Source: a virus. From it: DNA of 53,677 nt. Below, in pieces: positions 4,292-53,677 of the stretch (positions are counted from its first letter, which is position 1; the number at the start of each line of letters is the position of its first letter). The position numbers were made by a program, and so were the translations under genes. The notes beneath the pieces were generated by a model. That model had not been told where the DNA came from. It did no database searches and saw only the letters and a list, made by a program, of their open reading frames with translations. Location of the stretch: the IMG/VR virus record IMGVR_UViG_3300020195_000033, positions 1 through 53,677 of that record; one strand, given 5' to 3'.

Positions 4292-5614
4292 TTACGGCTC
4301 GACTTCGCGAGCAAGAATCTGGATCGTCGCATCCGGCCCGGTCGCCGCGCCATCAGAGCGGATACCGATGACGTACTTGCATGACGGGAGCCGTAGACAC
4401 GGATCGTGGAATCGGCCACCGACCCCAGCAAACACCGACGCACCGTTGACCGGTCTGATACCAGGCTGCTCGACACGCACTCCGCACATATCGCGCGTCA
4501 GTCGTGCACGCGCCGGAACGTAGGAAATCGAGAACCCGTTGCACGGGTTGCAGTCGTTGTAAAGCCCAGACGAATAGTCGTGCACCCCGAACTGTGGCCA
4601 GATCAGCACTTCCAAGTTCTGCAACTGCACCGACCCCGCGTTGACGATCACTTCCAGCTCGGAATCGAAAGTGCGGCCACCAAGATCAATGACGAAATAC
4701 TGCTCCGCACGGAACAGTGGCGGGCAGAAGCATGAAACTGTCGAATCCGCGGGCGGTACAAGAATGGGTGACGAGCAGTTCGGGTCCACCAAGAAGTCCG
4801 AAGCCTCGACACATTCAATCGTCGCGCAGGGCACCAGCACGCAATCGTTCAGCCCACCGACCGGTAACGCCGTCAGCGGCAGGAACTCGTAGCTGTCCAA
4901 GAACAGGTCCGCGTTAGCTTGCATCGTGAACATGATCCGAGTCAACGGCTTACACCCGCACGTCCCACACGAAATCCCCGACCCTTCAAGCACAGAAGGC
5001 TGCTCGACCATCTTCGCGTTCACCAACGTGCGCCACGGCGAAGTCGTCTCAGCCGGAGGCACCCACGACCCGCACGCAGACGGAACCTCTTGCGGGATAC
5101 ACGACATGAACCGCAACCGCGAACCTGAACACTGGGAGTCCCCGCAGCACCCGGCGAGTACCTTGCGGAGCGCGCGTAACCCAAACGCGACAGAGCAACA
5201 CGACAGCCCATGCAGGATCGCCTCGAAAGTCAGCGTGTACCCGTTCGACACGACAGGCTCGAACCCGATCGAGTTATCACAACGCGCGGTCGGATACGAC
5301 GTAACAGTCTGCGTGTTCGCTTCCAACCCGCTGACCTTTGTGACCTGCATCCCGAGGAAACTCGCGGACTCAGGACGGTTCACATCCCACCACCATGCGT
5401 CGTCGTCGACCGGATTCGTGTACGGCCCGAACGTGTACGGCGTCGACTCCCCCGCGGTCGGCATCCACGGCTCCACATCAGGGCAACACGCGTTACGAAC
5501 CTTCCCCGCGTTCACGCTATGAGCCTTCACATAGGCGAGGGTGCGCGCACAGTTCCACAGATCGAAGAACCCGTTGCGGTTACAACCGAAGAACCCGATC
5601 GCCTCAGCCGTCAC
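4292..5614 (-). CDS. Distal-tail-like minor tail protein, cysteine-rich
   Basis: 440 aa. The start was set at GTG 5614, which overlaps the tape-measure stop (GTGA); an upstream ATG at 5647 lies inside that gene. It is the first gene after the tape measure, the usual place for the distal tail protein. About 26 cysteines, including CC, CGTCGC and CNPC clusters, are striking for a virion protein. A motif like YTLTFEAILHGLSCC in the N-terminal half fits a beta-sandwich tail protein. Function is inferred from position. Confidence 0.7.
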   Translation of the reverse strand: MTAEAIGFFGCNRNGFFDLWNCARTLAYVKAHSVNAGKVRNACCPDVEPWMPTAGESTPYTFGPYTNPVDDDAWWWDVNRPESASFLGMQVTKVSGLEANTQTVTSYPTARCDNSIGFEPVVSNGYTLTFEAILHGLSCCSVAFGLRALRKVLAGCCGDSQCSGSRLRFMSCIPQEVPSACGSWVPPAETTSPWRTLVNAKMVEQPSVLEGSGISCGTCGCKPLTRIMFTMQANADLFLDSYEFLPLTALPVGGLNDCVLVPCATIECVEASDFLVDPNCSSPILVPPADSTVSCFCPPLFRAEQYFVIDLGGRTFDSELEVIVNAGSVQLQNLEVLIWPQFGVHDYSSGLYNDCNPCNGFSISYVPARARLTRDMCGVRVEQPGIRPVNGASVFAGVGGRFHDPCLRLPSCKYVIGIRSDGAATGPDATIQILAREVEP

Positions 5615-8600
5615 CCGTCCACCATCCTCGCCTTGTTCGCCCACCAAATCTTAGCCGCAGCATTCTCCGCCGAACCCCCGACAGCCTGCACCGTAATCGG
5701 TGGCATCTTCGCGACCGCTTCCGCGACCTTCCCGAGTCTGCGTGTCATCGCATCCACACGCGCGACTAGCGGCGACAAGTCCTGCACCGCTACAGCCGCA
5801 GGCGTCGCGTGAGCCTGACCGAGCATTCGACCGGTCTCCTTCCAGATCGCTACCGAACGATCACGCCACTTCGGAGCCATCGAAATGAACGCCTCACCCT
5901 GTGTCGACGGTTCCCCATACATCCAATGCGGTCCCTGAGCAGCCTGTGCCGCGCCGATGAAATGCGGTGCTGTCGCCTGCAACAACCCGCCAGCCTCAAA
6001 CCGGCGGATGACACCGCCAGCCTCAAACGGACCGCCGAACCGCAAGTCCCTCATCTGCCGCTCAAACTTCGACGAATCAGCCTCTAGGACGACCCGTAGC
6101 GTCCGCTCTGCGGTGACCTGGGCTACCAACGCCAGAATCTTCCGTTCAACTTCAGCAGAGGCTTCAGGGTCCATTTCGGGAGTGATCTCAGGGAAGTAGC
6201 CGCCCTCATTGAGCTGTGCGAGCGCATCAAGTTGCGCCTGAGCATCATCGAGTTTCCCAGCGTCAATGTTCGCCTGAATCGACGCCGCGATCACCGGCGA
6301 CTGCTTCGCAAGCTCAGATACCGCCGCGGTCATCGCTATAGCAGATTGCTCGTCCAGCACAGTCTTGAACGTGACCTCGTTCGCCCCATACGCACCCGAC
6401 GCGAGCGCATCATTGAACGTCTGAACGTCACCGCCCGCCTTCACGAAGTCGGCGCGCAGTTGGTCGATATTCGCGCTGAACCGCGCCTCAGCTAAGAGCG
6501 GGTCGCCCGACTCGTCGTAAATCGCCTGCGCTTCAGCAGTGAACAGGCCGATCGCTGACGCTAACGCCGCCTGATTATCACGACCTACAGCGAATGTCGG
6601 GTCGAGCGTCACCCCGATCTTGCGCTGCTTCGTGAACACTGAGTCCTTGCCGTCTAGCTTGTCGATCAACTCCTCAACTGCTGCTGTCGCTTCACGCAAG
6701 CTGATCTTCTTCCCGTTCAGCTTGTCCAGTTCCTCACTCACGCCTTTCAACGCCACGGACGCACGCTCAGACGGTGTAGCGAGCGCGCCGACCGCCGTGA
6801 TAAGCCCCGTAAAATCAGTCGTGCGGGTGTCGTCCAGCAGCCCCTTTGCCTCAGCCAGTTTCGTGAGGAACAGATCAAGTTGCCCCTGTGTCGTGATGAA
6901 CTCGACGTTGCCGATCTCCTTGAAGTTCGCGAGCAGTTTCGCTGCAACCGGATCAGACGCAGCTAGCGCTTCGACTGACGATCGAATACCACTTCCGAGT
7001 AGCTCGAACGTCTCAGTCGTGAACAATCCCGCTACTTGCAGCGCGCCGAACGCGCCGGTCAGACGGCGCGTAGCATGGTCAGAGGCTATAACCCCGTTGT
7101 TCAGATCGGCGTAGGCGCGTACGGCGCTGGCAGCTTGAGCGTCAGTCGGGAACACTCCCGAGAAATCCGTACCGCCCTTGCGGACAGCTTCCAAGAAAGC
7201 CAACGTCTTGTCTTGCGGGACGCCAATGGCTATGAGCGCCTGCTCAGCAGACGTGAACCCTTCCCTGAGAGCTAATGAAGAGGCTCGTATATCTTCCGGG
7301 GTCCCGAAGATTGAAAGTCCCGCGCCTGAGGGAAGTTCGATCTCCCGCAAGCCGAGCAGAGCGTCGTTCAGAATCCCGAGTGTCGTCTTGGCAAGTTCCC
7401 CGTTCTCGACGAGCAGCGCCAGCGCGTCGGCATCACTACCTAACGCAGAAATGTTCTCGATCAGCGCGTCAGTGACGCCTTCAGTGGCGGCTCGAAACGC
7501 TTTCTGTTGCTCGCTGGGGCCGTCGTCGCGAAACAGAAGGAACGCTGTCGTTGCCCCAGCTATCAGCAGTGTCAGCGGCCCAAGTGCACTCGCCGCGAGG
7601 GTCGCCCCGGTAGCAAACTCCGCGCCGAGAGTGACCACAGCAGTCCCGAGAGCGACAGCCGAGAGCGTGGCCGCGATAGTAGCGACTTGCCATACGATCA
7701 AGGCGTAAGTAAGTGCTTCGATTACCCCAACAGGGATAATTCCGATCACAGTCCCAAGCGCTTCGACGACTGTTGCGAACACTTCCAAGATCGGCGCGCC
7801 CGCATCGACCGCTACGAGTAACACTTCCAAGACGGTGACGAGCGGGTCGATCAGACGCGTGAGCAGCGGCAGACCTTTAGTGATAAGCGGACCGATCACC
7901 GTGAGCAACCGTCCGAACCCGTCGCCTACAGCCTCAATGAACGGGATCAGACGCGGCGCGGCGTTAGTCACGATCGAAGTCAGCGCCTTGCTCACCGTCG
8001 AGAACACGCCTTCAAGCTCCCCACCAATCTGCGCCGCGGAACCGAATACGTCGACAACGGTGCCCACAGACAGCGCCAGCGGGGTGAACGATCCGCGTGC
8101 GAGGATGGAGATGTTGTCTTTCAAGGTCGAGATTCGACCGTTGAGCGTCACTGACTGTCGTTCCATCGCCCCAGCAGCGCCAGGAAACTCGCGCATCCCT
8201 TGAATGAGGGCTTTGATCGCAGTGTCAGCGTCGAGAGAACCTGACTCGATCTTCTTTGTAGTCTCCTGCAACGTCAGCCCAAGCCCGGTTGCGATCGCTT
8301 GCGCAGCGTTGAAACCGGGGAGTGCCTCACGGATCTGATTCAGTTCTTGCGTCGCGACTTTGCCTTTGCCCTGAATCTGAGAAATCGCCAAGATCACACG
8401 GTCTACCGCGACAGTTCCTTGACCGAGAGTCGCTGCTACGTCACCGATAACGCCGAGCGTCGGTATCAGTTCGTTTCGGAACCCGCGCCCAAACGACGAC
8501 AGTAGTTTCTGCGCTGCACCAGTCAACTGCTCGAACTCGAACGGAGTCTTAGCTGCGAACGTCTGCAGATCACCAAGGAAGTCGTTGGCGATATCAGCGT

Positions 8601-17506: not shown

Positions 17507-17522
17507 TACAACGCTCATTGTA
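17507..17522 (-). promoter_or_regulatory. Operator-like palindrome overlapping a TACAAT -10 box
   Basis: TACAACGCTCATTGTA on the plus strand is a one-mismatch copy of the TACAAC-N4-GTTGTA palindrome seen at 24.5, 28.2, 38.6 and 44.4 kb. On the minus strand its outer arm forms a TACAAT box (17517-17522). It ends one base before the stop codon of the upstream gene (17523-17525). It would control the 17484 gene and the capsid transcript. Confidence 0.5.
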
Positions 17523-24513: not shown

Positions 24514-24555
24514 ATTGTACCACCGAATCACCCCCGTTACAACGCTAGTTGTAAC
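24514..24555 (-). promoter_or_regulatory. Operator-promoter cassette, copy 1: TTGTAA-17-TACAAT with 20-bp perfect palindrome
   Basis: On the minus strand: -35 TTGTAA (24537-24542), 17-bp spacer ending GTGG, -10 TACAAT (24514-24519), ATG at 24506. The palindrome GTTACAACGCTAGTTGTAAC (24536-24555, 8-bp arms) covers the -35, so a bound dimer would block RNA polymerase. It drives the 24506 gene and ArdC. Confidence 0.75.
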
Positions 24556-27393: not shown

Positions 27394-27909
27394 TCACTTC
27401 GCGCCGACTTCGATGAAGCGGTCAGTGGTCAACACTTCGATCGGCTTTTCCCACGGCTGATCGGTCGCTTTCGCGATCACACGAACTGACGTAGTACCGC
27501 TCATGCCGCGAGCGCCCGGGGGTGCCCACAAGTCTGCGCGGGCGGGGCGAAGAACATATCCCTCGGCGTAGCCCTTGTCGCCCAGCGTCGTCCGACGTTT
27601 CGGGAAGTAACTCAGATACTTGCCGGTGCGAACACCGTTCAAGTCGAGCAGCATCCAACGTGTCCCGTACGGCCCGTCGAACGGTCGAGCCGGTACGAAG
27701 TCGCCGTCAGTGGTGAACAGCGCGGGGAACGTAGCCGTCCCGCCGTCGTCGACGATCCGAGCGTCGAGCCGAGCTTTCTGAGCGGACAGATCAGATGCCC
27801 ATTGGCTCAGCGCCCCGTCAGTTCCGCAGCGCTCGAAAGAATCGGCTGCGTCTTGGGCGTGAGCGGCGGCGGTTGCCCGAAGTTCTGCCGCGGTAGTCGT
27901 CGTAGTCAT
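27394..27909 (-). CDS. Hypothetical protein, 171 aa
   Basis: The ATG at 27909 overlaps the stop of the leaderless gene upstream (ATGA), so it belongs to the operator-controlled transcript starting at 28160. Helical start (MTTTTTAAELRATAAAHAQD), then a beta-rich body (GTRWMLLDLNGVRTGKYLSYFPKR, AEGYVLRPARADLW). No family recognised. Confidence 0.65.
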   Translation of the reverse strand: MTTTTTAAELRATAAAHAQDAADSFERCGTDGALSQWASDLSAQKARLDARIVDDGGTATFPALFTTDGDFVPARPFDGPYGTRWMLLDLNGVRTGKYLSYFPKRRTTLGDKGYAEGYVLRPARADLWAPPGARGMSGTTSVRVIAKATDQPWEKPIEVLTTDRFIEVGAK

Positions 27910-28160
27910 TTCGTCACCGACCGCGAACTGATCTTGCCTGTTTCGAGTAGGAGACGCTCAAGGCCGACTCGCGCAGCGGTCACCTTGACGAACGACTCGC
28001 TAACGAAGTCGACAGCGACAGCCACAGCCACAGCGTCACGCGCTGCACACAGTTCGTCGACAGCATCTTCCCAAGCGGACACCGCCTCAGCTATCGCCGT
28101 GTCGTCACGGTTCGCTGATGCCAGCAACTCTTTGATGGACTTCGGTTCAGTAGTTGTCAT
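27906..28160 (-). CDS. Small helical protein, 84 aa, apparently leaderless (regulon member 2)
   Basis: ATG 28160 lies 6 nt after TACAAT; no Shine-Dalgarno. Starts MTTTEPKSIKELLASANRDD, matching the N-terminus pattern of the other leaderless genes, then helices (AIAEAVSAWEDAVDELCAARDAV). Larger open frames reading through from upstream are not needed, because the promoter cassette fixes the start. Confidence 0.7.
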   Translation of the reverse strand: MTTTEPKSIKELLASANRDDTAIAEAVSAWEDAVDELCAARDAVAVAVAVDFVSESFVKVTAARVGLERLLLETGKISSRSVTK

Positions 28161-28166
28161 ACCGTC

Positions 28167-28206
28167 ATTGTACCACCCCACAACGACAGTTACAACGCTA
28201 GTTGTA
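28167..28206 (-). promoter_or_regulatory. Operator-promoter cassette, copy 2: TTGTAA-17-TACAAT with palindrome
   Basis: -35 TTGTAA (28190-28195), -10 TACAAT (28167-28172) preceded by GTGG, palindrome TACAACGCTAGTTGTA (28191-28206, identical core to copy 1). The palindrome contains the TAG stop of the LPXTG gene (28198-28200). Start ATG at 28160. Confidence 0.75.
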
Positions 28207-28653
28207 GGGGTTTCGTTTGCGGCGGTGAGCGAACGACTGAAGCGCCAGCCCAGCGACAGACAAGAACGCCGCAACCCCGACGAGCCAGAACAGCTCGATG
28301 CCAGTCTTGGGTAGCCCCTCGCCGTTCGGTCGATGCGTGCAGTTCGGGTGACTCGCGAACTTCTTGCACCACTGAGCGTATGACAGCGTGGAAGGCGTGC
28401 AAGGCTGAGCGAAGTACGCGCCTGACGGGTAGGTGGCGTCGGGATTGATGCAGAAGTCGGGGAACTGGTAACGACACGGCCAGACACCGCTGAATATGTC
28501 CTGGTAGTAGCAGCCGTTCGGGTCAGCGCGCATTGCTTCCGCTGGGTACCCGGTTCCGGGCGGGGCCTTCTGAGAATCGGCAGCGACCGGAGCGGAGAAC
28601 GCAACCGGGACGAGCAGAGCAAGAACGACAGCTAGCCGCATTGTCTTAGTCAT
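28198..28653 (-). CDS. Secreted cell-wall-anchored LPXTG protein, 151 aa
   Basis: Signal peptide (MTKTMRLAVVLALLVPVAFS, likely cleaved near residue 25), a mature domain of about 85 residues with six cysteines (three possible disulfides), then LPKTG at 114-118, a hydrophobic segment (120-141) and the basic tail RRKR. This is a complete sortase sorting signal, so the mature protein should be covalently attached to the host peptidoglycan during infection. Possible roles are receptor masking or superinfection exclusion; this is inference. It has its own leader box (28659-28673) and a TAGTGT-like -10 upstream. Confidence 0.85.
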   Translation of the reverse strand: MTKTMRLAVVLALLVPVAFSAPVAADSQKAPPGTGYPAEAMRADPNGCYYQDIFSGVWPCRYQFPDFCINPDATYPSGAYFAQPCTPSTLSYAQWCKKFASHPNCTHRPNGEGLPKTGIELFWLVGVAAFLSVAGLALQSFAHRRKRNPYN

Positions 28654-28658
28654 TGGAA

Positions 28659-28673
28659 CACCTTTCGTGTGGG
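28659..28673 (-). promoter_or_regulatory. Leader box CCCACACGAAAGGTG of the LPXTG gene
   Basis: Same leader sequence as before 9888, 23392, 41057 and 47377, with a slightly altered ribosome-binding core (AAAGGTG). A TAGTGT element lies about 20 nt upstream, like the one before 45771. Confidence 0.45.
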
Positions 28674-28729
28674 AGTTTCTAGACTAGAACACTACTCCGT
28701 AGTAGCGGGGGAAGCTACTACCGTTGTAA

Positions 28730-30532: not shown

Positions 30533-31182
30533 TCGGTTGCAGTCGTTTCGATCGCAGGCTGAGAGAACCGGGAGACGATCTGAGCCATCCGTTCAGCAAC
30601 AAGATCAGCGACAGCCGACGAATCGGTTTGATCGTGAACCGTGATCGCCAACGTCGCCTTCTTCCCGTACACAGACGGCTCCAAATGTTCCAGCCGCCAT
30701 TGCACCATCCCCGAATCGGGCAGCGTCCGCTCAACAGTCTCGACCGTTTCGACGAGCGCGCCAGCCGAGTCTTTCTTGATACGTGTCGACTTGACTTCGA
30801 CACCGCCGCGTGCGATCTGCTCCGAAACAACGGTGAGACGGGCCACCTGAGAGCCGTGCGCTCGCACGGTACGCTCAGCGAAGATCGCCATGTCCTGCTG
30901 ATCGGGGGTGAAGTCTGTCTCCCACCCTGCGCCGGAGTTGAGTCGGGCGACGACGAGCTGGCCTTCGCGCATCCACGTCAGATACTCAGACGCTACGACT
31001 CCCGCTGCTGCTGCCGCGGTGACCGGGTGAACACCTGCGTCGATCTGCGACACGATGTAGTCACCGATCGTTGTCGGTTTCCCAGCGGTCAGATCGGACG
31101 GTAGGAGCGTCGAGATTGTCGGGCGTAGCGGGCGCGGCGGTGTCAGCCTGAACGACTGCGAACGATCCAACGTGTCAGTCAT
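30529..31182 (-). CDS. Terminase small subunit candidate (HTH)
   Basis: 217 aa. A helix-turn-helix-like N-terminal half (TTIGDYIVSQIDAGVHPVTA, AAAAGVVASEYLTWMREGQ) followed by a helix (AIFAERTVRAHGSQVARLTV) and GMVQWRLEHLEPSVYGKKATL. The last motif (WxLExxxPxxYG) is frequent in phage small terminases. Family role: recognising packaging sites on DNA. It is separated from the large subunit by 4.4 kb of accessory genes, and coupled to the ParB-methyltransferase gene. Confidence 0.7.
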   Translation of the reverse strand: MTDTLDRSQSFRLTPPRPLRPTISTLLPSDLTAGKPTTIGDYIVSQIDAGVHPVTAAAAAGVVASEYLTWMREGQLVVARLNSGAGWETDFTPDQQDMAIFAERTVRAHGSQVARLTVVSEQIARGGVEVKSTRIKKDSAGALVETVETVERTLPDSGMVQWRLEHLEPSVYGKKATLAITVHDQTDSSAVADLVAERMAQIVSRFSQPAIETTATE

Positions 31183-32684
31183 TTTTGTTGACCTATCAAG
31201 AAATCACCCAACGTCGTCCGCTTCAACACATGGCCGGGGTCTGTCGCTGCTGCGGCGAAGTCGTGAGACTGGCCGGTCGATTCCAACACAGGTTTGATCC
31301 CGGTAGTGAGCTGGAACCGCTTGCAGATTATGTCGCAGTAGCCCTTCGAGATTTCCGTGCCGAAGCCGACTCGCGACTGATTGTGAGCGGCGAGCAACGT
31401 CGACCCTGAACCCATGAACGGGTCGAACACGTTGTCGCCAGCGTCGGTGTATGCGCGGATGAACCATTCGGGCAGGCCGACCGGGAACGCCGCAGTGTGG
31501 CCAGTCGCATCATGGGAGCCGTTGAACGTCGGTAGCCGGTTACTCGGATACGCCATCCCATGCTCCGTGTATTCGCCTGGGGCAGTGTTCTGGCCTTGTG
31601 TCTTAGACATTCCGCTTGACGAACCGTTCCGGCGTTTCTTGCGACCCGCACCGATCGCAGCGAACCCGTTGCCTTGAGCGTCCTGCCATGAAGTGTTGCC
31701 GCCGCCAGGGCCGACGTTGATCGGCACATTGTCGGACGGGTGGCGCACCTCGTCGGGTCGCATCTTCCATTCGCCTCGGGCGAACTGGTAGATCGGCTCA
31801 AAATTGTTCTTGAACCGGCGAGTCACGCTCTTCGGGACACCGTTACGTTCCCAACAAAACTCGGTCGCGAAATGCCAACCCCACTCACGAACATGAGCAA
31901 TCACCAAGTCGAACACGTAGAGGCTCGTATCGAGTCCATCCGCCGAGGTTTTGATGTTCACGAACCAAGAACCGTCAACCGTCAGATTCGCTGCCACATT
32001 CGCCGCGACCGCCGCGAACCATTCGACATACTCGTCGGGCTTGATCGGTGTGAACCCCGATCCGGGGTCGTAGACCCGCTGCTCCGCGTACGGCGGTGAA
32101 GTGAACGCAAGATTGATCTTCGCCCCCGCCAACAACCGCGTCACGTCCTGCTCGTCGCGTGAAGAACCGCAAAGTAGCCGGTGAGGGCCGAGTAGCCACA
32201 GATCGCCAGGCACAGTGATAGCGGGCGCATAATCGACCTCGATCACATCAGGCGTGGACGTTTCAGGCTCAGCAGCAGCGAGTTGCGCCATCAGATCGGA
32301 CAGGTCACCCGCGGCGAACCCTGTGCCAGCGAACCCCGCCGCCGTCTCACTGAGCTGGGACAGAAGCCCAACGAGAGTCGACGAATCGTAGGTGCCGCTG
32401 TCGCTTGTCTGATTGTCGTTCAGCAGGATTCTGAGCGCCTCTTCGTCGTCAACGTCAAGGAACATGACCGGCACGAACAGATCGCCGCCACGCTTCAACA
32501 TGCGATGCCGATGATTCCCGGCGATGATCGACCGCGACGATTCTTGAACGATCACCGCACCGTAGAAACCGTGCGCGTCGATCGACGCTTCAATCGCAGT
32601 CTCATCACCACGCCGCGGATTCAGGGGATGCTCCCCGATCGAGTCGATCAGTACTGCCGGGTCGTACCGTTGCGCGACGATCAT
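31179..32684 (-). CDS. ParB-domain DNA methyltransferase
   Basis: 501 aa. The N-terminal ParB/Srx-like domain has IIAGNHRHRML (about residues 53-63) after HPLNPRR. The C-terminal amino-methyltransferase has TSPPY (195-199), the catalytic motif of N4/N6 enzymes, and VFDPFMGSGSTLL (419-431), the SAM-binding motif, in the beta order. The family is widespread in phages and thought to modify phage DNA against restriction. Immediately upstream of the small terminase, so it may also mark packaged DNA. Both catalytic motifs are intact. Confidence 0.9.
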   Translation of the reverse strand: MIVAQRYDPAVLIDSIGEHPLNPRRGDETAIEASIDAHGFYGAVIVQESSRSIIAGNHRHRMLKRGGDLFVPVMFLDVDDEEALRILLNDNQTSDSGTYDSSTLVGLLSQLSETAAGFAGTGFAAGDLSDLMAQLAAAEPETSTPDVIEVDYAPAITVPGDLWLLGPHRLLCGSSRDEQDVTRLLAGAKINLAFTSPPYAEQRVYDPGSGFTPIKPDEYVEWFAAVAANVAANLTVDGSWFVNIKTSADGLDTSLYVFDLVIAHVREWGWHFATEFCWERNGVPKSVTRRFKNNFEPIYQFARGEWKMRPDEVRHPSDNVPINVGPGGGNTSWQDAQGNGFAAIGAGRKKRRNGSSSGMSKTQGQNTAPGEYTEHGMAYPSNRLPTFNGSHDATGHTAAFPVGLPEWFIRAYTDAGDNVFDPFMGSGSTLLAAHNQSRVGFGTEISKGYCDIICKRFQLTTGIKPVLESTGQSHDFAAAATDPGHVLKRTTLGDFLIGQQK

Positions 32685-35290: not shown

Positions 35291-35946
35291 GACGACGACG
35301 TGTCGTCGGGGTGAACAGGACCGCACACAGACACCCACGGCCCGACCAGTAAATCGTAGTGGTGTTGTGTGAAGCCGTGAAGTCCGATCAGGTCACGCAT
35401 AACCAAAGCCCCTGCAGCATCCGCAGCCGCCCGCCCAGCCGCGATCATGTCCCCACTCGCAGCATCCATCGCAGCCGCCGTCGCAGCGTTCGCAGCATCC
35501 ATCGCAGCCGCCGTCGCAGCGTTCGTAGCATCCATCGCAGCCCACGTAGCCCACGTAGACGCCGCAGACGCCGCGGCAGCCAATCGGGAAGTCTCGTCTA
35601 CGGGCAGGCCCGCCACCCGACGCACCAAAGCGACAACCTGCTCCCACTGTGGCCCGAACGTCGCCGCCAACATCTCATCGGTGATCTCACTATTTGCTAC
35701 CAGCGCAGATTCGATTTGATCGAACTCGAAAGTTTGGTCGTTGAACTGTGTGCCGAACCCAAACCGTGCCCCGACCTGCTCCACCAGAAAGGCGTCACCC
35801 GGAACCGGTTGACAATATCGGATAGCCCCAAACATGCACGTCGGGGTATCGGCATGCTCCCAGTCGCCCCAACCGTGTGTCCATAGCCGCCCGTGGTCGA
35901 GCCTTTCCACAACCTGCGCAACCGGGATCGTGATAATCGTTGTCAC
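35254..35946 (-). CDS. Protein with Ala-rich repeats and WQPAERGKP tail, 230 aa
   Basis: GTG 35946 (GTGA). The N-terminal half is soluble and acidic (GRLWTHGWGDWEHADTPTCM, FGAIRYCQPVPGDAFLVEQV). Residues of about 130-175 are Ala-rich with 11-residue repeats (NAATAAAMDAA). The protein ends SSSSSWQPAERGKP. No family; the low-complexity helix may be a spacer. Confidence 0.65.
   Translation of the reverse strand: MTTIITIPVAQVVERLDHGRLWTHGWGDWEHADTPTCMFGAIRYCQPVPGDAFLVEQVGARFGFGTQFNDQTFEFDQIESALVANSEITDEMLAATFGPQWEQVVALVRRVAGLPVDETSRLAAAASAASTWATWAAMDATNAATAAAMDAANAATAAAMDAASGDMIAAGRAAADAAGALVMRDLIGLHGFTQHHYDLLVGPWVSVCGPVHPDDTSSSSSWQPAERGKP
35457..35540. repeat. 33-bp tandem repeat (about 2.5 copies) in the Ala-rich segment
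   Basis: The unit encodes NAATAAAMDAA on the minus strand, period 33 bp (11 codons). The copies are near identical. Confidence 0.85.
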
Positions 35947-36362
35947 GGCTTGCTCCGTTCTGCGGGTTGCCACGACGACGACACCGGCGCAAGCTGCACC
36001 ACGCCGAGCCACCCATGCAATGCGGCGTGGATCGCTCCCTCTCTTGAGGGGTGCACCCGACTGAACCAACCGTCAGCGTGCACGCTCACCCAATGCTCCT
36101 CAGTCATCGTCGGCATCGCTGCCGGAGGCTCCGGCAGACGCACCCAGGCGTCGAGAGTGGACAGCGAGAGCACACCCGGAGAGTCGTCAGTCTCGTAGAC
36201 GACATACCACAGACCGAGCAGACCAATGTGCCCAGGAAACACGCCGACCACACGCACGGTTTCGCAGGAACCGGCAGGTTGCCAGCGGCTCCCCACCAAC
36301 GCCTCCGGGTGATCCGTGCATGCTTTCAGTTGCTCACATCGTTCACACTTGGTGTCGTTCAT
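35943..36362 (-). CDS. Cys-knuckle protein, 139 aa (paralogue of 36359-36835)
   Basis: ATG 36362 overlaps the upstream stop. Starts MNDTKCERCEQLKACTDHPE; the next block ALVGSRWQPAGS and the strand VGVFPGHIGLLGLWYVVYE parallel the adjacent gene. C-terminus SSSWQPAERSKP. A CxxC-x-C site is possible. Tandem duplication with divergence of the C-terminal half. Unknown role. Confidence 0.65.
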   Translation of the reverse strand: MNDTKCERCEQLKACTDHPEALVGSRWQPAGSCETVRVVGVFPGHIGLLGLWYVVYETDDSPGVLSLSTLDAWVRLPEPPAAMPTMTEEHWVSVHADGWFSRVHPSREGAIHAALHGWLGVVQLAPVSSSWQPAERSKP

Positions 36363-36835
36363 CGGTTCTCCTGTACTGCTAAAGCGGCTTCAAGTTGTTC
36401 AAGCAATCGGCCACGACGCAGCCAGCGATGCAACATGTTGATGGCCTCAAAGTCGTCATGATCTTCGGGATCGAGGTTGGCGATGCAACTGATGCCGTCG
36501 CATTCTTGGTCGCCGCAGAATCCGCAAACGTCGGTGCTGGGGCATGACAACTCAAACAACTCAAACGGGTCAGCGATGACCGGCGGCGTCGGCATCGGTG
36601 CCGGAGCCTCCGGCAGACGCACCCACCGATCGAAAGTGACTAGCGAGAGCACACCCACAGAGCCGCCGTCAGGCTCAAAGACGACACACCAACAGTCGGT
36701 GCGCCCAGGAAACCCGGCAACGACTCGCACAACAGGAAGGACACCAGATTGCCAGCGGGAACCCACCAACGCCTCAGGATGATCGCTGCACGCTTTCAGT
36801 TGCTCACATCGTTCACACTTCACATCGTCGCTCAT
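36359..36835 (-). CDS. Cys-knuckle protein, 158 aa (paralogue of 35943-36362)
   Basis: ATG 36835 overlaps the upstream stop. MSDDVKCERCEQLKACSDHP and ALVGSRWQSG match the neighbouring gene; the C-terminal half has another knuckle (TDVCGFCGDQECDGISCIAN) and a final helix. Likely metal-binding; function unknown. Confidence 0.65.
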   Translation of the reverse strand: MSDDVKCERCEQLKACSDHPEALVGSRWQSGVLPVVRVVAGFPGRTDCWCVVFEPDGGSVGVLSLVTFDRWVRLPEAPAPMPTPPVIADPFELFELSCPSTDVCGFCGDQECDGISCIANLDPEDHDDFEAINMLHRWLRRGRLLEQLEAALAVQENR

Positions 36836-38557: not shown

Positions 38558-38598
38558 ATTGTACCACGGAACGACACCGGTTTACAACTACGGTTGTA
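38558..38598 (-). promoter_or_regulatory. Operator-promoter cassette, copy 3: TTGTAA-18-TACAAT with palindrome
   Basis: -35 TTGTAA (38582-38587), -10 TACAAT (38558-38563) preceded by GTGG, palindrome TACAACTACGGTTGTA (38583-38598). The palindrome covers the stop codon of the Gp37/Gp68-like gene (38588-38590). Confidence 0.72.
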
Positions 38599-39457
38599 GC
38601 GGGTATTGGCGGATTCTTAGACCAGGCGGGAACCCGTCGATATCGCTCCCAGCGCGGTCAGCGCAGCCCCATACACGCCCCAAGACGCTCCCAGCCTGCT
38701 TCAAGTAGAAAGCGACAGGGACAGAGCCAGAGTTGCTGCAACGCTCGCACGAAGTCGTCGACCCGTCAGCTTCATGGCTTTCGTAATACCCGACTTCCAT
38801 GCAAGAACAAGGAACGTCGTGCGCGCAGAGGTCAGCAAGGTCGCGCGCCCATTGTTCTTGCATTGGGCGCGCGTTCGGGCCTGACTCGCCACCAACGATC
38901 AGCCAGTCGATGCCGGTCAGGTCGAGTGACGGCAACGGCCCCAACAGCGGCTCGGCACTCAGGAACCGGATCGGGGCTGGAATAGTCCGCAAGATCGGTA
39001 CACGCTCGACAGCACGCTGGTCATCTTCCACGGTTGTGCCCATCCAACAGTTCAACGGCCACTCCCCCAACCAGTGAGCGGGAATGAGACTAACCACGTT
39101 CTCTGGGCGTTTCGTGAGCAACTGCCAGTGCAGCCAGGGTGTCACTTCGATCAGCGCGAACAAACGCGTACGATCAGCGTCAAGGTCACGACGGTCCTCG
39201 AACACGTCGGCCATCGACGCACAGAACACACGCTGTGGAATACCAGCAGATTCGGCTTTTGTGTTCCACCTGACCGGCTCGGCCCAGTGCTTGTCCCCGA
39301 AGTGGCGGCGGTCGGCGTTCTTACCCCACACGATGTTGCCAGTACGTTTCGCAAAGGCTTCGGCATAACATTTTTGGCAGCCAGCGCTCACCCTCTCGCA
39401 GCCCCACCAGGGATTGAATGTCGCGTCTGTCCAACTGATTGCGGTCGTCGCTCCCAA
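38588..39457 (-). CDS. Phage Gp37/Gp68 family protein (DUF5131)
   Basis: 289 aa. TTG 39457 chosen because GGAGG lies 8 nt upstream and the previous stop is 2 nt away. ISWTDATFNPWWGCERVSAG followed by CQKCYAE is the family signature with conserved cysteines; later LLTKRPENV, FLSAEPLLGPL and IDWLIVGGESG are also typical. The fold is thought to be radical-SAM-like with unknown substrate. Very common in actinobacterial and mycobacterial phages. Confidence 0.88.
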   Translation of the reverse strand: MGATTAISWTDATFNPWWGCERVSAGCQKCYAEAFAKRTGNIVWGKNADRRHFGDKHWAEPVRWNTKAESAGIPQRVFCASMADVFEDRRDLDADRTRLFALIEVTPWLHWQLLTKRPENVVSLIPAHWLGEWPLNCWMGTTVEDDQRAVERVPILRTIPAPIRFLSAEPLLGPLPSLDLTGIDWLIVGGESGPNARPMQEQWARDLADLCAHDVPCSCMEVGYYESHEADGSTTSCERCSNSGSVPVAFYLKQAGSVLGRVWGCADRAGSDIDGFPPGLRIRQYPLQP

Positions 39458-39459
39458 TG

Positions 39460-39612
39460 CTAGTCCCTCCCATTTGCTAGTCGTCTGAGTGTGTCGCTGA
39501 GGTCGTTCAGCCGTTGCTGATAATGCCGCAGGCACAGCCATTGAACTGGGTTCCCGTAGCCGACGAGCGACTCGCTAGCACAGCCTTCGACTTCACACTG
39601 ACGTTCGGTCAT
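39460..39612 (-). CDS. Zinc-finger-like small protein, 50 aa
   Basis: ATG 39612 overlaps the previous stop (ATGA). MTERQCEVEGCASESLVGYG, then VQWLCLRHYQQRL: a C-x4-C and C-x2-H pattern like small phage zinc fingers. Its 3' end carries the Shine-Dalgarno of the next gene. Confidence 0.7.
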   Translation of the reverse strand: MTERQCEVEGCASESLVGYGNPVQWLCLRHYQQRLNDLSDTLRRLANGRD

Positions 39613-44343: not shown

Positions 44344-44373
44344 ATTGTACCACGGATGACAACGTTCGTTGTA
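44344..44373 (-). promoter_or_regulatory. Operator-promoter cassette, copy 4: GTGGTACAAT with shifted palindrome
   Basis: -10 TACAAT (44344-44349) preceded by GTGG. Palindrome GACAACGTTCGTTGTA (44358-44373, one mismatch) sits about 10 bp closer to the -10 than in copies 1-3, so it would cover the spacer rather than the -35. Start codon cassette ATGACAA as in the others. Confidence 0.65.
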
Positions 44374-51185: not shown

Positions 51186-51593
51186 TTAGCCAAGCCCAAG
51201 TTTCGGTGCAAGCTCAGCCGCGTCAGACGACTTGTCCCACAGCTTGTACGCCGTCTGAGAGCTGACCACCAACACCATCACGTCAATGAACGCCGTTCGC
51301 GTCAACACCGCCGACCCGTCAGGGAGCAACACAGCACGCTCGACGAGCGCCGTAGCGACAGTCACGACGATCGCGACGATCACCTTCACCCGCGGACTGG
51401 CAGACACCTTCAACAGCAACCCGATCGCCACCGGCAACGCAACAGCGGTGAGGACAGTCCACACCGGCTGCGAGAACGTCACCGAGTGACTCTCCGCCGC
51501 CGGGGCAACTTCCTGCGCGTGAACGACACCGGGAAGCGCGAGTACCGACACAGCAACAGCTACACCGGCAAGTAACCGCTTGAAGAACCTCAT
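51186..51593 (-). CDS. Holin candidate, 135 aa
   Basis: Signal-sequence-like or first membrane helix (RLLAGVAVAVSVLALPGVVH), then two to three hydrophobic helices (WTVLTAVALPVAIGLLLKV, VKVIVAIVVTVATALVERAV, FIDVMVLVVSSQTAYKLWD). Located directly after the endolysin gene, the usual holin position in actinophages. Would permeabilise the membrane to release the endolysin. A signal-arrest arrangement is possible. Confidence 0.75.
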   Translation of the reverse strand: MRFFKRLLAGVAVAVSVLALPGVVHAQEVAPAAESHSVTFSQPVWTVLTAVALPVAIGLLLKVSASPRVKVIVAIVVTVATALVERAVLLPDGSAVLTRTAFIDVMVLVVSSQTAYKLWDKSSDAAELAPKLGLG

Positions 51594-52601: not shown

Positions 52602-52612
52602 CAGATCGGCTC

Positions 52613-53563
52613 TCAGTACGACACGATGACGACGATACCCGCGCCGCCAGCGCCGCCAGCGCCGGATGCGGAACCGTTCACAGATGCGCCACCACCACCG
52701 CCGCCGCCGCCGTACAAGCCGCCATTTCCGCCCGCTGACGACGCCCCAGCGCCAGAGTTAGAACCCCCGCCACCACCAGCACCGGTGTTGGGAAGGTTCG
52801 CTACAACCGATCCACCGTCACCACCCGCAGTCGGTGTCGTCGTACCGGCGATGCCACCTGCCGCAAATCCCGACAATCCGCCTGCGCCGCCAGGCGTCCC
52901 GACGTTCAATGCGCTGATGTCACCCGCGCCAGCGCCGCCGCCCGCGACCGAGTTGCCGCCTTGTCCACCAGGGCGACCGCCAATATCGGCAACGGTGTTG
53001 CCGCCCACACCAGGAGGGGGACCAACGATCTGACCTGTCGGCACGGGTTGGTCGCCATTGCCGGATACCCCGCCCGCGACATTGGTTGTGTTGCCGCCGC
53101 TACCGTTACCGCCTCCGAACGCTTTGACCCACACGCCGATCGACGAGAACCCGCCGACAGCGCCAGCGTTACCGTTTGTATCGTTCGCCGCGATTGCCAC
53201 GCCACCCGCGCCACCCGCGCCGACGACAACGGTTTCGCTAGCCGCTAACGCAGAGAGATTGAGAACGCCTGACAGACGTGCGCCACCGCCGCCGCCGCTG
53301 CCGCCGATGCGCGCGGACCCCGCAGCACCACGTCGGCCTGACCCGCCGCCCCCGCCAGCGCCGATGATGACGTACTCAGCGACCTTCGCCCCAGCAGGTT
53401 TCACGAAGTTACCGTTCGCGGTGAACACCTGAATGTCGACAACACCCTCGAACCACAGACAGTTCGACGCGTCAAGGCGAAACGGATTCTTATAGTTCGC
53501 CGGTGGTGCAGACGTTGGCGGGCACCCACAACCAAGTCCTGGCCCGTCAGCTACGAATCCCAT
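52613..53563 (-). CDS. Glycine-rich tail/fibre protein, 316 aa (paralogue of the wrapped gene)
   Basis: ATG 53563. The N-terminus with CGCPP is followed by VFTANGNFVKPAGAKVAEYV, then Gly-rich repeats up to the C-terminal GGAGGAGIVVIVSY. Hydrophobic C-terminal strand with final Tyr as in many Gly-rich phage fibre tips. About half of the residues are Gly/Ala/Ser. A duplicate of the neighbouring gene that crosses the window ends. Confidence 0.85.
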   Translation of the reverse strand: MGFVADGPGLGCGCPPTSAPPANYKNPFRLDASNCLWFEGVVDIQVFTANGNFVKPAGAKVAEYVIIGAGGGGGSGRRGAAGSARIGGSGGGGGARLSGVLNLSALAASETVVVGAGGAGGVAIAANDTNGNAGAVGGFSSIGVWVKAFGGGNGSGGNTTNVAGGVSGNGDQPVPTGQIVGPPPGVGGNTVADIGGRPGGQGGNSVAGGGAGAGDISALNVGTPGGAGGLSGFAAGGIAGTTTPTAGGDGGSVVANLPNTGAGGGGGSNSGAGASSAGGNGGLYGGGGGGGGASVNGSASGAGGAGGAGIVVIVSY

Positions 53564-53572
53564 GTGTTCCTC

Positions 53573-53677
53573 CTAGTAGCAGACCATGATGACAATGCCA
53601 GCGCCGCCAGCGCCGCCAGCGCCGGATGCAGAACCGTTCAATGACGCGCCGCCGCCGCCGCCGCCGCCGCCGTAGAT
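53573..53677 (-). CDS. C-terminal 34 codons and stop of the wrapped glycine-rich protein
   Basis: Reading from 53677 down: IYGGGGGGGGASLNGSASGA then GGAGGAGIVIMVCY-stop (53573-53575). In frame with the 5' part at 1-867. It almost repeats the C-terminus of the 52613-53563 gene. Confidence 0.85.
   Translation of the reverse strand: MYGGGGGGGGASLNGSASGAGGAGGAGIVIMVCY

Follow-up and report, generated by a model that had tools for sequence, protein, structure and literature searches.

SasX is a cell-wall-anchored protein of Staphylococcus aureus encoded by a phiSPbeta-like prophage, a Firmicute element, and is described as aiding colonisation (PMC10232760). Other phages place small proteins in the envelope of the cell that they infect: Llp of phage T5 excludes superinfection, and proteins of the Llp/Cor type spare progeny from lysed fragments, with an intramolecular disulphide mentioned in the same account (PMC9586334). 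Surface proteins with a sortase motif are also carried by mobile elements, since the LPxTG proteins of TnGBS have been likened to surface exclusion proteins (PMC4053933), a function given for PrgA in a reference title in PMC7726212; such proteins act against conjugation, not phage.

We have analysed a gene for a predicted wall-anchored protein in a 53,677-nt stretch of DNA (the window); this stretch is an entire IMG/VR virus record, which is linear and may be incomplete. Like SasX, its product is a surface protein anchored in the cell wall (predicted here) and encoded by a phage, a likeness of description. Unlike SasX, it lies in an actinophage-like record without a detectable integrase, and its product would display a six-Cys domain of orphan sequence. 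T5 Llp is described as a lipoprotein of the periplasm that acts on FhuA in a Gram-negative host, whereas a sortase anchor is predicted here, and any likeness to Llp or Cor is that of a protein which would work in a similar way, a functional analogy. Phage-encoded wall-anchored proteins are already known from SasX and the actinophage case is a new version; among the open-licence papers searched we found no report of a wall-anchored protein in an actinophage, nor of wall-linked phage exclusion proteins. If the proposal set out below is true, the host sortase is put to use by a phage in which no integrase was detected, and the surface of a cell that is being killed is rebuilt with its help; superinfection could then be excluded in actinobacteria by a simple route that is open to testing.

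The gene and its predicted product

The 151-residue ORF starts with ATG and is borne out as coding. Scored with codon statistics from 13 large ORFs of the window, its frame reached 0.109 per codon, the sole positive value among six frames (the other five lay between -0.19 and -0.29), and its GC3 is 0.73. Overlapping ORFs scored 0.039 (27906-28622, minus strand), -0.166 (28190-28477, minus) and -0.029 (27802-28314, plus), while the shorter downstream gene at 27906-28160 scored 0.297. The first-pass annotation had described a signal peptide, six-Cys ectodomain, LPKTG motif, helix and RRKR tail, all of which are present in the translation (Table 1).

Table 1. Features of the locus, with coordinates in the window and the basis of each assignment.
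Feature	Position	Strand	Basis
Predicted exported, wall-anchored protein, 151 aa	28198..28653	-	ORF, coding score, motif shuffling
Signal-peptide-like N-terminus, residues 1-25	28579..28653	-	Hydropathy
Ectodomain, residues 26-113, six Cys, no relatives found	28315..28578	-	Homology searches; AlphaFold2 (low confidence)
LPKTG motif, residues 114-118	28300..28314	-	Pattern search, shuffling, anchor alignment
C-terminal hydrophobic helix, residues 119-138	28240..28299	-	Hydropathy, AlphaFold2
Positively charged tail QSFAHRRKRNPYN	28201..28239	-	Translation
Leader/SD box CCCACACGAAAGG before ATG	28661..28673	-	Box count, sequence reading
Leader hairpin, 8-bp stem, 7-nt loop (GTAGTAGC/GCTACTAC)	28699..28721	-	z -2.0 for 96-nt stretch
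Exact palindrome TACAACTAGCGTTGTA, operator-like, over -35 of next gene	28191..28206		Pattern count
Promoter TTGTAA-17-TACAAT of downstream near-leaderless gene 27906-28160	28167..28195	-	Sequence reading

Hydropathy rules identify the N-terminal signal peptide expected of LPXTG sortase substrates, with a basic N-terminus followed by a hydrophobic core, and cleavage probably falls near VAA-D as read by eye. At the other end of the protein the LPXTG motif, hydrophobic stretch and basic tail follow one another in the order that sortase substrates require. Nowhere else in the six frames of the window does an LPxTG precede a hydrophobic stretch and then a short basic tail; two further matches to a looser LPxTG pattern lack the anchor layout. 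All six cysteines of the ectodomain, which is about 90 residues long, lie between the signal peptide and the anchor. The first of them is residue 48, and the translation lacks the lipobox Cys at the end of the signal peptide that is found in the T5 Llp and Cor lipoproteins. Single-sequence AlphaFold2 returned a mean pLDDT of 51, with the ectodomain mostly below 50, a confidence too low to give a usable fold.

Virus context and host

Portal, capsid, tape-measure, tail, terminase, replication and recombination genes are all present in the window, together with genes for an ArdC-like antirestriction protein, a ParB-methyltransferase fusion and a DUF5131 protein. The tail protein at 4292-5647 lies directly after the tape measure, and all 21 of the phage records that it matched infect actinobacteria. 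Eight of these relatives' records were opened: a long gene precedes the tail protein in four of them, as in the window (a tape measure in Tonitrus, Clawz and TurkishDelight, and a hypothetical gene in PIS 136), and a short ORF precedes it in the other four. Relatives of the terminase are mostly proteobacterial. Because its nearest named relatives are Brevundimonas phages, the evidence on the host comes from the tail protein only, which supports the prediction of an actinobacterial host; the terminase lends it no support.

No integrase or resolvase was detected in the record by models or PHROG scans. The left end of the contig lies beside tail genes and the right end within them, from which we infer a nearly complete genome that was broken there; the position of both ends near tail genes suggests a broken circle. 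A 105-nt direct repeat, 84% identical between its copies (52610-52714 and 53570-53674), occupies the right end in glycine-rich tail genes.

Several other genes deserve mention. The ORF at 31179-32684 (minus strand) fuses a ParB-like N-terminal domain (below cut-off in Pfam, strong in PHROG) to an N6/N4 DNA methyltransferase. Relatives of the DUF5131 protein (38588-39541, minus) occur in 82 viral contig stretches and in 150 phage records, including 96 of Gordonia or Mycobacterium. The neighbouring ORFs 35943-36362 and 36359-36835 (both minus) share two stretches of 84-88% identity (36108/36587 and 36275/36745) and form a tandem gene duplication, the second of the pair having no PHROG or Pfam match.

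Proposed function

Starting from the observed gene, its anatomy, the likeness of its anchor to actinobacterial anchors and the phage context, our leading, if tentative, explanation is that the product is a sortase-anchored wall protein which hinders further phage adsorption or injection. The gene would be expressed during infection and its small product exported by the infected actinobacterial cell, whereupon the host sortase would cut at LPKTG and link the protein to the wall. This would display a short surface domain, probably stabilised by disulphides. In the most tentative step of the scheme, the displayed domain would hinder further adsorption or injection by phages, and with it the loss of progeny on wall debris. 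If the protein is indeed anchored in the wall, the chance that it serves superinfection exclusion is, on analogy, close to even. We rank this function first for two reasons: lytic phages such as T5 make small envelope proteins against re-adsorption and loss to debris, and LPxTG proteins likened to surface exclusion proteins are in use among mobile elements. The first-pass suggestion that the protein could block receptors or mark the cell is at this stage a conjecture. The more elaborate version, in which a non-integrating actinophage uses the host sortase to build a covalent, disulphide-rich wall shield as a Gram-positive counterpart of T5 Llp, which would remain on pieces of wall after lysis and keep freed progeny from adhering to them, is rather doubtful.

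The main rival reading accepts the wall anchor and has the protein work for the carrier cell, either as an adhesin or as a conversion protein, in the manner of SasX, the wall-anchored product of the phiSPbeta-like prophage (PMC10232760), in staphylococci. The anatomy is equally compatible with such a role. However, neither an integrase nor a resolvase turned up in the record, so that nothing points to a long-lived carrier state, and the ectodomain is short; we consider this reading possible but on balance unlikely.

The predicted LPKTG anchor

A further reading takes the product to be a type I membrane protein in which LPKTG is a coincidence and which has a membrane role, for example in lysis timing. 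Small membrane proteins are often made by phages. Against this, LPxTG appeared in the last 10 positions of the ectodomain in just 115 of 1,000,000 shuffles of the residues between the signal peptide and the helix, and the position of LPKTG is unlikely to be due to chance. To set a background rate, 7930 ORFs of 90 aa or longer were taken from 85 viral loci totalling 1.40 Mb: 59 of them had a C-terminal hydrophobic anchor and five of these a signal-like start, none of the five with an LPxTG-like motif. The corresponding numbers for 80 genome loci were 5517 ORFs, 60 anchored, 11 with a signal-like start and none with the motif; these loci are mostly proteobacterial, and neither set tests phages of sortase-bearing hosts.

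The scores of the curated anchor models speak for a membrane protein. PF00746 matched at the anchor site with 13.6 bits, below its cut-off of 20, and TIGR01167 with 13.5 bits (14.8 in a six-frame search) against a cut-off of 15.9, so that the protein is assigned to neither family; two LAXTG/LAVTG models also gave weak matches. The earlier description of a complete sortase substrate is thus upheld by the anatomy, and by the resemblance to actinobacterial anchors described next, but not by the curated models.

Searching 396 Actinomycetota genomes with the whole protein gave matches in 58 at E <=0.1. The strongest of these fell on the C-terminus of a 2846-aa ORF in which LPRTG precedes a hydrophobic stretch and a basic tail; its per-genome E of 0.0018 is not significant alone over 396 genomes. 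Of the nine matched regions that were inspected, five have an LPxTG or LAxTG anchor and four lack one. Over 45 anchor residues, four actinobacterial LPxTG proteins (G103, G081, G272 and G078) are 35-46% identical to the phage protein and have the same sorting-signal layout, whereas no similarity to its ectodomain was detected and most of those examined are longer. A profile was built from the window anchor and four actinobacterial anchors picked for having the motif, and it matched 45 of the 396 genomes at E <=0.001. Motif and hydrophobic stretch were found together in each of the best 10 of these 45 matches. Since the four profile members were chosen for the motif, only the six loci from genomes outside the profile count as evidence, and all six have LPPTG, LPRTG or LPATG. 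The C-terminus of the phage protein, as judged by these alignments, resembles those of actinobacterial surface proteins.

We regard wall anchoring as probable and, on the rarity of the motif position in shuffles and the resemblance of the surrounding residues to bacterial anchors, the membrane-protein reading as improbable. For a role in lysis there is, moreover, a separate holin-like candidate: the ORF at 51186-51593 (minus strand) encodes a 135-aa product that starts with a signal-like sequence and has two more hydrophobic segments, with no family match.

No sortase was matched by models in the window, so anchoring would need the host enzyme. A sortase domain was found in all ten tested genomes that bear such anchors; this is no clear enrichment, because 124 of 149 sampled Actinomycetota genomes carry one anyway. 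In three genomes (G272, G229 and G074) the sortase lies on the same contig as the anchor and within 4 kb of it.

Relatives and origin

Relatives of the whole protein were found neither among 50,697 phage records nor among stretches fitting its pattern in viral_contigs (3, none confirmed) and genome_contigs (67, none confirmed). PHROG families gave no match at E <=0.01, and the best E in a PDB search was 0.46. A search with the C-terminal 55 aa returned one match (E 1) inside a terminase, which we took as chance. The ectodomain had no relatives in the 396 genomes of the phylum or in 66 of one class, and by these searches it is an orphan. Recent capture of a host surface gene with no phage role, which the host-type anchor might suggest, is very improbable given that no host ectodomain relative emerged from these genomes or genome_contigs and that the GC content of the gene (0.614) is close to that of the window (0.608).

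The anchor profile fitted 18 stretches of viral_contigs, none of them confirmed, among which there may be phage LPXTG proteins with similar anchors. With TIGR01167, five of 49 further viral records matched at E <=1, none above the cut-off, and the LPXTG layout was absent from the three of the five that were inspected; among nine named phages there was one match, below the cut-off and with no LPXTG. Two scans of viral_contigs with other proteins of the window found nothing.

Leader, promoter and palindrome

The gene was previously credited with a leader box of its own, and this stands: the 76-nt gap to the upstream ORF contains both a hairpin and the SD box CCCACACGAAAGG ahead of the ATG. Enrichment of the box in the window is only modest, at 12 matches (up to one mismatch) vs 5.1 expected. 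The same annotation had placed the stop codon inside an operator. The TAG (28198-28200) does fall within TACAACTAGCGTTGTA, an overlap that we put down to the tight packing of the gene against the downstream promoter. As this palindrome covers part of the -35 in the promoter of the next gene, it is uninformative on the function of the LPKTG gene.

The palindrome, TACAAC-N4-GTTGTA, has five copies in the window at up to three mismatches, against 0.16 expected (17507-17522, 24538-24553, 28191-28206, 38583-38598 and 44358-44373). The copies at 24538, 28191 and 38583 overlap TTGTAA, with TACAAT 17 nt further on and an ATG after another 6-8 nt. We read it as a putative repeated promoter-operator of near-leaderless genes, in the present case 27906-28160, and the near-leaderless genes that bear it are likely to form a phage regulon.
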